This document shows, piece by piece, positions 50,923-54,943 of a DNA stretch of 64,000 bases. Positions within the stretch are counted from its first letter, which is position 1. Each line of letters begins with the position of its first letter. Origin of the DNA: Cyclobacteriaceae bacterium. Its GTDB lineage: Bacteria; Bacteroidota; Bacteroidia; Cytophagales; Cyclobacteriaceae. The stretch spans positions 1-64,000 of the forward strand of contig JAAUQL010000005.1 in the NCBI GenBank assembly GCA_012033595.1, read 5' to 3'. The notes under the pieces are model-generated. The model was not told the origin of the DNA. It saw nothing but the letters and a program-made list of their open reading frames with translations, and did no database searches. The translations under genes and the position numbers were made by a program.

Positions 50923-51255
50923 ATGGCACTATTGGAAGAAACCTCGCATGTACAAGCAAAACCTGCAAACAAGGCAGAAATTAGCAAGCTATGGAAGATC
51001 GCCGGCATTTTGCTGCTCATTACCCTGGTGGAATTCGTTTTTGCTTTTACACTGCCCGAGCATTGGAAACTGATGAAAATTTCCATATTCGTAGGACTCA
51101 CCTTTGTGAAGGCATTTTATATCGTCTCTGAATTTATGCACCTGAAGCACGAAACCAAGCTACTTGTGTGGTCTATTGCCCTGCCACTGATTTTTGTCGT
51201 GTGGATGGTCATCGCCCTCGTGTATGAGGGGGAAGCAATTTCGAGTGTCCGGTAA
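50923..51255 (+). CDS. Cytochrome c oxidase subunit IV, prokaryotic type
   Basis: 110 residues, three membrane helices (about 27-45, 50-70 and 80-100). The family pattern is visible in KISIFVGLTFVKAFYIVSEFMHLKHE. It is a small accessory subunit of the oxidase and the last gene of the operon. The SCO1 copper chaperone and DUF420 genes that often follow in relatives are absent here. Confidence 0.88.
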   Translation: MALLEETSHVQAKPANKAEISKLWKIAGILLLITLVEFVFAFTLPEHWKLMKISIFVGLTFVKAFYIVSEFMHLKHETKLLVWSIALPLIFVVWMVIALVYEGEAISSVR

Positions 51256-51418
51256 ATGGTGCTTAATTCAACGCCGGTCTATGAATCCTGACCCAGCTTG
51301 CACGTAGTGGACAAAAGTTGCCCTAAATTCACTTGCCAGGGATGACATGAATGCAGAAAAGATTATCGCTTGTTGCCCATAAACCCAGCCCCGGAAATGG
51401 GTGTGACCTTGAGTAGTG

Positions 51419-52297
51419 TCAATTTTTGAAGAGGTGCTGCTCCCTGATCAAAAAATCCTGCAATAATCCCGGTTCATCGCCGGTAACTTCCTTCACCACC
51501 TGGCTCAGTTTGTGTCTTTTCTTTTGAAAACGGGGAAGAAAATGCAGCATGATCATCACAAAAATCATTGGCGTGGGGACTTCCTGTTTTTTCTTCTTCA
51601 GAAAAAAACTGCACAAATTGGGGCTGGTGTAGGTGATTTTTCTGCCAAGTACGCCGGTCATTTGGCGGGCGACTTCGTCAAATCCCAGCACTTCTGAGCC
51701 TGTAATTTCCAGTTCCTGATGCGAAAAAGCATCAAAATGAGTGAGGATATGAGCGGCTACTTTACCTATATCTACGGCATCGACCCAGGTAAATTTCACT
51801 TTGCCGGCAGGTACATAAATATGGTCTTGTTCCAGTATATCGGGCAAAAGGGTTGTACTGAGATTTTGCATGAAATAGCTGGGCCTGAGAAATACATATT
51901 CTAAACCCAAAGCTTTGATCAACTGCTCCATTTTGTAATGTGGGATTTTGGGTTGATCTTCGACCCCCTGCACCGACAGGAACACCACCCTGGAGACATT
52001 CTGCCTTTGCATAGATTCAAAGAATGGCTCGAAAAATTTTGATATATCGGCCAGGTTTGGTGGACGAAGCAAAAAAACAACATCTACGGCCTGTAGCGCT
52101 GCATCAAAACCAGCAGAGTCAGCAAAATCCAATTGCCTGACAGAGATGCCCTCAAAAGATTCTAATTTGTGTTGCGTGGATTTCACATCTTTTCCCGCCG
52201 CTATTATTTCATGTTTGGTGTTCAGTGGAGCAAGGGCCGCCATTACCTCCCTGCCAATATTACCGGTGGCTCCCGTGATTAATATTTTGTAAGTCAT
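51419..52297 (-). CDS. NmrA-like NAD(P)-binding protein
   Basis: 292 residues. Rossmann start ILITGATGNIGREVM (residues 5-19), then VVFLLRPPNLADI, RVVFLSVQGVED and YVFLRPSYFMQNL, the pattern of atypical short-chain dehydrogenases such as NmrA, HSCARG and quinone oxidoreductase 2. Such proteins either reduce quinones or sense NADP(H). The usual Tyr-x-x-x-Lys survives only as HYKMEQ. It starts 4 bases after the WD40 gene stop and likely forms an operon with it. Confidence 0.85.
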   Translation of the reverse strand: MTYKILITGATGNIGREVMAALAPLNTKHEIIAAGKDVKSTQHKLESFEGISVRQLDFADSAGFDAALQAVDVVFLLRPPNLADISKFFEPFFESMQRQNVSRVVFLSVQGVEDQPKIPHYKMEQLIKALGLEYVFLRPSYFMQNLSTTLLPDILEQDHIYVPAGKVKFTWVDAVDIGKVAAHILTHFDAFSHQELEITGSEVLGFDEVARQMTGVLGRKITYTSPNLCSFFLKKKKQEVPTPMIFVMIMLHFLPRFQKKRHKLSQVVKEVTGDEPGLLQDFLIREQHLFKN

Positions 52298-52301
52298 CCA
52301 T

Positions 52302-53393
52302 TCAATGTTTCAAATCCCTGTTGTTGAGTTGATCATCGGCCACTTTCTGATACAGACCCTGTTTGTGCTGCATGTTAGACAACACCATGTACAGGTTGAT
52401 GAGGCCACTGTCTTCATGTGCGGTAAGCATCAGCCTGCCGTCTTTCGAAAAATCGATATATTCTACCCTTGGACAGGGAACTTCAAGGACTTTTTCCAGA
52501 TCCGACAAACGATAAAAAGTGACACGTTTGTTGTGCCCGCCGGTAACCAAATACTGGCTATCATTGGTAAAGGCCACCGCCTCCACACGCATGGTCTCAC
52601 TGAAAGTCTTCAATTCTTTGCCGCTTTCCATTTCGAATAGTTTTGCTTCGTTGGCAAAACCGCCGGTTGCGATATATTGTTCATCGCCCGAAATGCGCAC
52701 GGATTTCACCGAGGCTGTATGCTCGCCATATGACCTGATCACATTTTTGCTTTGCATATCTACCAAACGGGCAAAACCAGTATAATGGGTTGCACCAGTA
52801 TTAGGGTCAGGGGTTTGGATGTTTCCTCCGATAAGTATGCGCTTGTCGTCAAGGGTAAAGTTAAGTGAATTGATGGTAGAACCCACTTTGATCTTCCAAA
52901 GCAAATCGTACGTTTCAGCATCCCAAAAGTACGCCTCTCCATCTTCCGATCCGCTGGCGATTATTGTGCCATCGTGCGACCAGGTAATGCCGTCCAGCCC
53001 GCTGGGATGTTCCCAGCTTTTTATTTCCTTTCCTGTTTCTACATCCCAAATTCGCACAAAATAGTCCTCGCCACCGGTGGCAATCCGTTTGTCGTCAGGC
53101 GAAAAAGTGACACATTCTACTTCCGACTCGTGTTCGGCCGTCCAGATAAGTGAACCATCGGGCACATTCCACAGCATTACTTTATATCCAAACTTGGAGC
53201 CGCTTACCGCCAACATGCCATCGTTAGAAATTTCGGCAGATTCCACCGCTCTTAATTTGGGCGAAAAATCGGCTACACGAGTCCAAATATGCTCTATTTC
53301 AGGTACTTCACTATTGTAAATATGATTTTGTGCAATGCCGCAGAAGGAGATAGCAATGCTAAGAAAAATCGAAGGGATGATTATTTTATACAT
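52302..53393 (-). CDS. Secreted WD40-repeat protein
   Basis: 363 residues from the ATG at 53393, chosen because a signal peptide follows directly (MYKIIIPSIFLSIAIS, cleaved near GIAQN). About seven beta-propeller repeats fill the mature part, several with the WD-like ending (VRIWDVETG, AYFWDAETYDLLW, VMLWNVPDGSLIW). WD40 propellers are protein-binding scaffolds. No enzyme domain is attached. The NmrA-like gene follows 4 bases after its stop. Confidence 0.85.
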   Translation of the reverse strand: MYKIIIPSIFLSIAISFCGIAQNHIYNSEVPEIEHIWTRVADFSPKLRAVESAEISNDGMLAVSGSKFGYKVMLWNVPDGSLIWTAEHESEVECVTFSPDDKRIATGGEDYFVRIWDVETGKEIKSWEHPSGLDGITWSHDGTIIASGSEDGEAYFWDAETYDLLWKIKVGSTINSLNFTLDDKRILIGGNIQTPDPNTGATHYTGFARLVDMQSKNVIRSYGEHTASVKSVRISGDEQYIATGGFANEAKLFEMESGKELKTFSETMRVEAVAFTNDSQYLVTGGHNKRVTFYRLSDLEKVLEVPCPRVEYIDFSKDGRLMLTAHEDSGLINLYMVLSNMQHKQGLYQKVADDQLNNRDLKH

Positions 53394-53605
53394 GGAACAA
53401 GTATTAGAAGTGAATTGAATTTGAGTGGAAAGATGGAGAATATATGTCTTAAATTCAACTAAAATGGAGCCTTCCATAAGAAAGAGGCGTGAGGCATGAT
53501 ACAACATGGCAGAATTGGCGACAAGCTAAAGTACTGTGCAGCTCATGGCATCAATGGCATGTTTATTCATCGGGTTTCATCAGACTCCTATCCCGCAGTG
53601 GGCAA

Positions 53606-53621
53606 TGTGACTAAAGTCACA
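53606..53621. promoter_or_regulatory. Crp/Fnr-type operator palindrome
   Basis: TGTGACTAAAGTCACA: an exact TGTGA-N6-TCACA, the classical Crp-family recognition pattern, with 7-base arms around AA. It lies 213 bases upstream of the WD40 gene start and about 110 bases before the orphan terminator. Confidence 0.6.
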
Positions 53622-53729
53622 AAGCCAAAATGCAAGGGGAGTAAATTAGGGAGGCTTTTGTGAAAAATGATATATCTGTAATCCAACGATTGTACTAATA
53701 CTTGAATTAAAGATATTATTGGTGTTTAA

Positions 53730-53762
53730 AAAACGTCGGTCAACATAGTTGGTCGGCGTTTT
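53730..53762. terminator. Orphan rho-independent terminator
   Basis: Fifteen-pair stem AAAACGTCGGTCAAC / GTTGGTCGGCGTTTT (three G-T pairs), ATA loop, with A-rich and T-rich flanks that suit both strands. No gene ends near it. Confidence 0.8.
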
Positions 53763-53856
53763 TATGTTTTATGGAAGGTGAGCGTCAGGTGGAGCGGCAT
53801 CAGAAAATCCGCAGCAGGCAATATGCTTTGTTTCTAATAAATGATATCGACTTTTT

Positions 53857-53889
53857 CCACACCTGTCAAAACAGCGGTGGTATTTTTTT
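53857..53889 (+). terminator. Second terminator-like hairpin
   Basis: CCAC-AC-CTGT / ACAG-CG-GTGG (two 4-base stems with a small internal loop, CAAA apical loop), followed by TATTTTTTT. Weaker than the first. Confidence 0.5.
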
Positions 53890-53969
53890 GTGCTGTATTT
53901 TTTTTCAAAATGCGGAATCTTGACAAAAGGGTTTTATTCAATCAATTAAAATATGAAAGCGTGATTTTA

Positions 53970-53977
53970 TATTTTTG
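53970..53977 (+). promoter_or_regulatory. Putative -7 box for the MerR-type gene
   Basis: TATTTTTG matches TAnnTTTG, 78 bases upstream of the GTG at 54056. No clear -33 element. Confidence 0.35.
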
Positions 53978-54055
53978 TGAAATATTTATACCCAAACATT
54001 AAACAATATGCTTGAGTTATGTGATTATTAGTTTAAATATCAAAAGACTATCCAC

Positions 54056-54943
54056 GTGTCGTATTATTCTATCAAAGAGATCGAGCAACTTTCAGGTATC
54101 AAAGCGCACACCTTGCGCATTTGGGAGCAGCGCTACAATTTTATAAAGCCAAAAAGGACAGATACCAATATCAGGTATTACGACGACACGGATCTAAAAC
54201 ATGTGCTCAATATTGCGCTACTCAAAGAAAATGGACATAAGATAAGCAGGATTTGCACCATGCACGAGGAAGACCTGCAGCAGGAAGTCTTGAAGCTGAT
54301 GGAGAGCAAAATCGGGTTTCCGGAGCAGATACAAGGCCTAACGCTGGCCATGCTTGAGTTGGATGAAGAACGCTTCGAAAAGCTGTTGAGTACCAATATT
54401 CTCCAGATTGGTTTTGAGCGTACTATGCTCAACCTTATTTATCCGTTTTTTCAAAAAATCGGAATTTTATGGCAAACTGGAGCCATTACACCCGCACAGG
54501 AGCATTTTATCTCTAATCTGGTCAGGCAAAAAATCATTGTCGCTATCGACGGACAAGCATTAGTTTCGGAGCCACACAAGAAATATTTGTTGTATCTGCC
54601 CGAAAACGAACTCCACGAAATGAGCCTGCTATTTTCGTCCTATATCATCAAATCAAGAAAAAACAGGGTCATCTATATCGGCCAAAACGTACCACACAAC
54701 GATTTGGTCACCATTTACAAAGACCACAATCCCGATTACATCCTTACCGTTTTGACAACATCTCCACCATTGAGCGAGGTGCAAGAGTATATTTATCAGC
54801 TTTCCGGGTCGTTCAAAAATGCCAAAATATTGCTTTCAGGCCATCAGGTGGTTGGTCAGGATATGAACATACCAAAAAATATGGTTTTGCTCAACAGGCT
54901 TCAGGATCTTATCGATTTTGTGGAAGCTCAAAGCAAAAGATAG
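54056..54943 (+). CDS. MerR-family regulator with B12-binding light-sensor-like domain (CarH/LitR-like)
   Basis: 295 residues, GTG start. The MerR winged helix is residues 1-75 (SIKEIEQLSGIKAHTLRIWEQRY). A helical bundle of the B12-binding-1 type follows (about 85-165) with the W-x9-EH motif (W139, E149, H150) that in CarH caps adenosylcobalamin. Then comes a Rossmann-like cobalamin domain (about 175-295) with the candidate cobalt ligand His187 in ENELHEMS. CarH-type proteins repress carotenoid genes in the dark and release DNA in light. No carotenoid gene is in the window, so the targets are unknown. The Gly that usually follows the His motif is replaced by Ser190, so cobalamin binding is likely but not certain. 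Confidence 0.88.
   Translation: MSYYSIKEIEQLSGIKAHTLRIWEQRYNFIKPKRTDTNIRYYDDTDLKHVLNIALLKENGHKISRICTMHEEDLQQEVLKLMESKIGFPEQIQGLTLAMLELDEERFEKLLSTNILQIGFERTMLNLIYPFFQKIGILWQTGAITPAQEHFISNLVRQKIIVAIDGQALVSEPHKKYLLYLPENELHEMSLLFSSYIIKSRKNRVIYIGQNVPHNDLVTIYKDHNPDYILTVLTTSPPLSEVQEYIYQLSGSFKNAKILLSGHQVVGQDMNIPKNMVLLNRLQDLIDFVEAQSKR

Follow-up and report, generated by a model that had tools for sequence, protein, structure and literature searches.

The window analysed here is a 64,000-nucleotide stretch of a Cyclobacteriaceae genome (contig JAAUQL010000005.1, positions 1 to 64,000). Within it, 662 bases separate two divergent genes, one encoding a WD40 protein and read leftward (start at 53393) and the other encoding a MerR/B12-binding regulator and read rightward (start at 54056). 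The regulator resembles CarH/LitR proteins and scores 92 bits against the NCBIfam CarH model, under the cut-off of 400 for that model. The initial annotation had proposed that the interval holds a Crp/Fnr-controlled small RNA reading rightward, as one or two tandem units. The features of the region are:

52302..53393, - strand: WD40 beta-propeller gene, start codon at 53393
53606..53621, no strand assigned: Crp-type operator TGTGACTAAAGTCACA, centre 53613.5, recognised from its sequence
53642..53649, + strand: weak -7-like box TAAATTAG, ending 36 bp from the operator centre
53654..53765, + strand: hypothetical rightward RNA of ~110 nt, suggested by the operator-to-terminator geometry
53729..53763, + strand: intrinsic-terminator hairpin of 16 pairs, rightward, from folding, shuffles and a window scan
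53857..53889, + strand: second, weaker terminator-like hairpin with T tract, 4+4 pairs with an internal loop, z -2.3
53966..54044, + strand: MerR promoter-proximal region with TTAAACAAT, 75% identity to the region upstream of the orthologue in congener G003 (E 1.1e-5)
54056..54943, + strand: MerR-type regulator with B12-binding domain (CarH/LitR-like), Pfam MerR_1 5.6e-16 and B12-binding_2 1.3e-10

The perfect Crp-type operator that had been claimed is present at 53606-53621, and 107 bases separate it from the main stem, close to the roughly 110 proposed. These bases had been described as free of ORFs, which is not the case, as a 55-codon ORF (53496-53663) crosses the operator. We rejected this ORF as a small-protein gene, since searches of 294 other family genomes (at E 0.01), of Pfam and of NCBIfam all gave no match. 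The transcription start implied by TAAATTAG would lie near 53654.

The main hairpin, 53729-53763, was annotated with 15 pairs and has 16 (13 Watson-Crick and three G-T), with a loop of 3 nt and ATGTTTTATG directly after the stem. Part of its T run lies within the stem and the remainder is ATGTTTTATG. The + strand RNA (53724-53768) folds at -16.6 kcal/mol, compared with -5.1 (sd 2.0) in 100 shuffles (z -5.8), and the - strand RNA at -9.0 kcal/mol (z -3.6). Each of the three positions that are not Watson-Crick is a G-T on the + strand and can therefore pair only in RNA of that strand. A scan of the window, in which genes were taken from a greedy ORF list, returned this as the longest terminator-like intergenic stem. 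It combines a stable hairpin, beyond that of shuffles, with a following T run, as in intrinsic terminators, and appears to be a terminator of rightward transcription for which, as the initial annotation had noted, there is no gene.

The second hairpin is found 93 bases after the main stem, where one had been placed at about 95, and is the weaker of the two. Its stem (CCAC..CTGT/ACAG..GTGG, 53857-53880) is followed by seven T (53883-53889) and folds at -9.9 kcal/mol. The interrupted stem was missed by the terminator consensus scan. Neither 53622-53768 (z -1.2) nor 53765-53895 (z +1.0) is unusually structured overall relative to shuffles. The idea of two tandem units found no backing, as the score of 19 for the local alignment of one against the other (16.5 on average in shuffles, sd 2.2) was reached by 81 of 500 shuffles.

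Other identities for the interval were considered and rejected. No Rfam model matched at gathering score anywhere in the window, and the four matches up to E 5 in 53300-54120 were all far under their cut-offs; no tRNA or tmRNA was detected in the window. The search for a decayed gene, covering 10 of 12 stop-to-stop frames of at least 28 aa by Pfam and three of them also by NCBIfam, gave weak hits only (YesK, ribosomal L37e and S14), far under cut-offs. The interval does not appear to be a multicopy element, its best match elsewhere in the same genome being at E 0.147. Regarding a phage or plasmid origin, no match was found, and the stem pattern is absent from viral contigs.

Synteny and conservation on both sides of the interval

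In three congeners (G002, G003 and G004) the MerR orthologue is 72-82% identical to that of the window and divergent to an aminopeptidase-P-like gene, with the two starts ~230-340 bp apart. An ECF sigma gene follows the MerR gene in all three, and phytoene-desaturase/synthase-like genes come next in G002 and G003 and not in G004 (the names of these aminopeptidase, ECF and phytoene genes were assigned by inspection). The MerR gene of G005 has different upstream neighbours, and the contig ends inside the gene; G001 has a match of 39% only and G006 none. The window genome has a single MerR match, on the window contig, and its ECF/carotenoid-type cluster is on contig C99 (L061). As a counterpart of the aminopeptidase, only a 30%-identical relative was found in the window genome.

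On the left side, the cytochrome oxidase operon of all six congeners has two further genes (~202-234 and 178 aa) downstream of subunit IV, subunit IV not being called as an ORF in G005. The window operon stops after subunit IV (51255-51419), and an NmrA-like gene and the WD40 gene are found there on the other strand; the absence of the two further genes was judged at this locus only. The WD40 gene was not found in the six congeners at E 1e-40, and one other of 290 genomes of the order has it at E 1e-70. Three WD40 relatives for which an upstream flank is available (L081-L083) have other surroundings, without the interval. Thus, the gene order indicates that the interval lies within rearranged DNA, a false assembly join being less likely. 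The initial annotation had read proximity to the respiratory operon as a clue to function. This clue is lost, because the operon runs on with other genes in six of six congeners and the proximity would be a product of rearrangement.

A lack of conservation in close relatives had been named beforehand as refuting the small RNA. This is what was observed at the resolution of the genomes compared, the interval proving unconserved beyond its MerR promoter end and short, scattered matches. Conservation was gauged in six congeners, five of which have MerR identities of 39-82% and the sixth no match, and in 389 other genomes of the order. The best match among 38 relatives is 53966-54044, upstream of the G003 MerR orthologue; the others are short, at E of at least 5e-4, and mostly in the AT-rich right part. 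Against the 389 genomes, 53394-53920 returned only two pieces at E 0.001, of 32 and 27 nt.

Alignment of the MerR upstream regions showed TTAAACAAT to be common to G002 and G003, with AAAACAAT in G004. In a comparison that covered + strand loci only, GTTTAA/TTAAAC boxes were conserved near the MerR and ECF starts (MerR-ECF spacers L059, L056 and L058). These spacers also contain conserved elements of the ATTTAGATT/ATTTAGAA type. Features of these kinds were noted at 53998-54037 of the window as well. It is possible that the boxes and these elements are MerR operators and sites of a second regulator. Identity of the window palindrome as a CarH/LitR operator was rejected, as the conserved boxes near the MerR/ECF genes are TTAAAC/GTTTAA and not TGTGAC.

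The operator in the genome and across the family

In the 662-bp interval, no 16-nt dyad other than TGTGACTAAAGTCACA has 7 or more of its 8 pairs. Merely as a dyad it is not surprising; dyads of at least this quality number 35 in 64 kb, with 24 expected at equal base frequencies. The whole genome contains six copies of TGTGAN6TCACA, compared with two for the reversed control and ~5.5 expected at equal base frequencies. Five of the six are intergenic. In a 248-kb sample drawn from this genome and from its congeners, where intergenic was defined as outside ORFs of at least 90 aa, 11.4% of the sequence and 12 of 81 comparable dyads are intergenic, giving P ~1e-4 for five of six relative to the sample share and ~4e-4 relative to the dyad control.

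The window site has the TGTGAC-N4-GTCACA dyad of the family operator, and both such sites of this genome sit between genes. The other is on contig C202, between Fur-like and sulfite-reductase-like genes (names by inspection), and like the window operator it does not follow the TTTG rule described below. No TTTG occurs at 36-38 bp from the window operator on either strand. The best box nearby is TAAATTAG, on the + strand, which has one mismatch and ends at 36; a box with one mismatch would arise by chance within 36-38, on one strand or the other, with a probability of ~0.06. No strict TAnnTTTG was found before the main hairpin, and the two relaxed -7 boxes in the interval match the shuffle mean of 2.1, so we recognise no promoter for a small RNA in the interval.

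A further TGTGAN6TCACA was noted upstream of the ECF-sigma gene on C99 (G000:C99:5246, L061). At the aligned position G002 has TGTGACGTTTAGCACA, and G003 and G004 have remnants only.

Across 98 family genomes, TGTGACN4GTCACA occurs 19 times and its reversed control 12 times. Among the 17 sites outside the window genome, 13 are intergenic (the control share comes from the 248-kb sample only) and four are within ORFs (L069, L071, L073 and L077), of which L071 and L073 are probably before a later start codon. Ten of the 17 (L064, L066, L067, L071-L076 and L079) have a TTTG that ends exactly 37 or 38 bp from the operator centre on one strand, when 0.73 would be expected (P ~3e-10, for a distance picked after inspecting the sites). 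The other seven are L065, L068, L069, L070, L077, L078 and L080. The sites are not all independent, since L071 and L072 belong to the same gene in two congeneric species.

TTTG is the core of the Bacteroidota -7 box, TAnnTTTG. A Flavobacterium study places that box at -12 to -5 (PMC9723704). Combined with a TTTG at 37/38 bp, this position implies a class II arrangement in which the operator would be centred near -41.5/-42.5. TGTGACN4GTCACA thus looks like a genuine Crp-type operator class in this bacterial family, and one that, judging from the aligned distances, tends to follow a strict class II promoter rule. A TTTG at 37/38 bp provides a concrete criterion for separating likely live operator sites from orphans.

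These counts bear on the view that TGTGACTAAAGTCACA is a chance dyad that was never under Crp control, the hairpin being an insulator or stray terminator. Total numbers fit it, both in the genome (six with ~5.5 expected) and in the family (19 relative to 12), and the window and C202 sites both have no -7 partner. However, although operator counts are hardly raised, the sites are mostly placed between genes, in this genome and in the family alike, which overturns a pure-chance view. We consider this explanation of the window site doubtful.

Neighbouring genes and candidate regulators

The genes beside the sites that follow the rule encode an MBL-rhodanese (L073), a SoxA/TsdA-type cytochrome c (L072, and L071 by sequence likeness), a redoxin and a thioredoxin (L075, L079), an outer-membrane efflux protein (L074), glyoxalase-like and RidA-like proteins (L066, L076) and a 137-aa protein (L064). 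Neighbours counted outside the rule include a second MBL-rhodanese (L067), from which the TTTG is directed away, a molybdopterin oxidoreductase (L078), a MauE-like protein (L065) and a glycosyl hydrolase (L070). Judged from the predicted products, the sulfur/redox theme among the neighbours is real and not exclusive. The initial annotation had guessed at an oxygen- or redox-related role; its argument from proximity fails, and the guess is nevertheless not absurd given that several family-site neighbours are sulfur/redox genes.

Three family sites adjoin Crp-like genes, with recognition helices SREVISR (L074), SRETLSR (L076) and SRESLNR (L065). In Pfam, the L074 protein has a cNMP-binding and a Crp HTH domain, the L076 protein a cNMP-binding domain alone and the L065 protein none. 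The RExxxR helix pattern is that of E. coli CRP, where it is paired with the TGTGA half-site. We propose the sites L064-L080 as a candidate sulfur/redox-linked, Crp-type class II regulon in this Bacteroidota family.

The window genome encodes five HTH_Crp_2 proteins over the cut-off, all of which were examined, plus four weaker matches. Just one of the five has the RExxxR helix (SREVVSR), namely the C198 regulator (G000:C198:18694-19337; L102, L107), the sensor half and HTH half of which are in different frames. This disruption could be a true lesion or an assembly error. As the HTH_Crp_2 search would miss divergent Crp-like proteins of the L065 and L076 types, another regulator may exist in this genome.

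The C198 regulator gene adjoins a gene for a SulP-like transporter (name by inspection), which is preceded by a sub-perfect site, TGTAATCCTTATCACA, with TAATTTTG at 37. We rejected this site as an in-genome positive control: the implied start falls just beyond the ATG of the ORF, and three other hits as loose as this one occur in the 64-kb window.

Interpretation and comparison with known systems

We favour, with a probability of about one half, the explanation that the interval is a breakpoint spacer, probably yielding no product, in which a genuine rightward terminator accompanies a Crp-type operator that is an orphan or a relic. A rearrangement would have split the MerR gene from an ancestral ECF-sigma/carotenoid-type neighbourhood, as the direction of change appears from the congeners, and the MerR gene would have retained ~90 bp of its own promoter. 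The sequence from 53394 to ~53960 may then carry what is left of a transcription unit, earlier or minimal, that was read rightward, the -7 partner of the operator having been lost or never present. With this partner missing and the best candidate regulator frame-disrupted, the operator is most likely silent or nearly so, and the main hairpin most likely still halts stray rightward transcription in a passive way. The explanation draws its support from the unmatched spacer, the broken synteny on both sides, the operator without TTTG and the split regulator. Against it, most exact copies of the operator in the family are intergenic and seemingly functional, and the strong + strand hairpin with its three G-U pairs looks maintained. 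Moreover, an assembly error could account for the split in the C198 regulator, the genome may encode other regulators, certain real small RNAs are lineage-specific, and a contig mis-join could be present.

The small RNA originally proposed would, in its surviving form, be a single rightward unit of ~110 nt (~53654 to 53765) driven by a Crp-type activator on TGTGACTAAAGTCACA. Two of its elements stand: within the family the operator seems to belong to a genuine class, and the main hairpin is biased to the + strand. Also in its favour, the one-mismatch TAAATTAG ends just one base off the class II distance. However, that box has no TTTG and is misplaced by the same base, the interval is unconserved in the genomes searched, and neither an Rfam match at gathering score nor a second unit was obtained. 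The RNA overall is not unusually structured, and in the assembly the reading frame of the best candidate regulator is broken. We regard this small RNA as unlikely.

A variant would make the lack of ancestry part of the account, with a sulfur/redox-linked Crp-type regulator, of which a limited literature search turned up no description, having captured a newborn, species-specific small RNA gene at a fresh rearrangement breakpoint. If true, this gene would have no ancestry in the genus; its operator would be complete and its terminator strong, and its promoter weak and class-II-like, at -40.5. We find this rather improbable.

Control of the leftward genes is the least probable explanation: a Crp-type protein at 53613, 220 bp upstream of the WD40 start codon, would regulate the WD40 and NmrA-like genes from a class I position at about -92.5, and a one-mismatch -7 box, TACTTTAG, with TTG at spacing 18, does end 88 bp from the operator centre, which is an allowed helical phase for a class I Crp site, but the distances over-represented in the family are 37 and 38 bp, not 88, the number of relaxed boxes in the interval is that of shuffles, and the flanks of the three WD40 relatives have no such region.

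The interval by itself is an ordinary unconserved intergenic stretch, in which nothing is of a new kind; a palindrome and an orphan terminator are insufficient to call a small RNA. Spot 42 and CyaR of enterobacteria are Crp-controlled, conserved across genera and have mapped transcripts. The putative unit in the window is like them in being short, with a Crp operator and an intrinsic terminator, and in needing no ORF, and unlike them in having been found in one genome only and having no recognisable -7 box. Rfp18 of Flavobacterium psychrophilum, one of the independent small transcripts of Bacteroidota, is similarly intergenic, and the phylum-type -7 box TAnnTTTG is expected for such transcripts. 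Rfp18 came from transcriptomics and is described as having wide conservation across its genus (PMC9723704), whereas the window element is predicted from sequence and unconserved in the genomes searched.

A limited literature search found no description of this operator or of a Crp-controlled small RNA in Bacteroidota, and the family's class II rule for this Crp-type operator, with several sulfur/redox genes nearby, may be new to the literature. In comparison with class II Crp-dependent promoters, the window operator is identical in its defined positions to the family sites and differs in having no TTTG at 36-38 bp on either strand. The family operator rule, with its sulfur/redox neighbours, represents a testable regulon.
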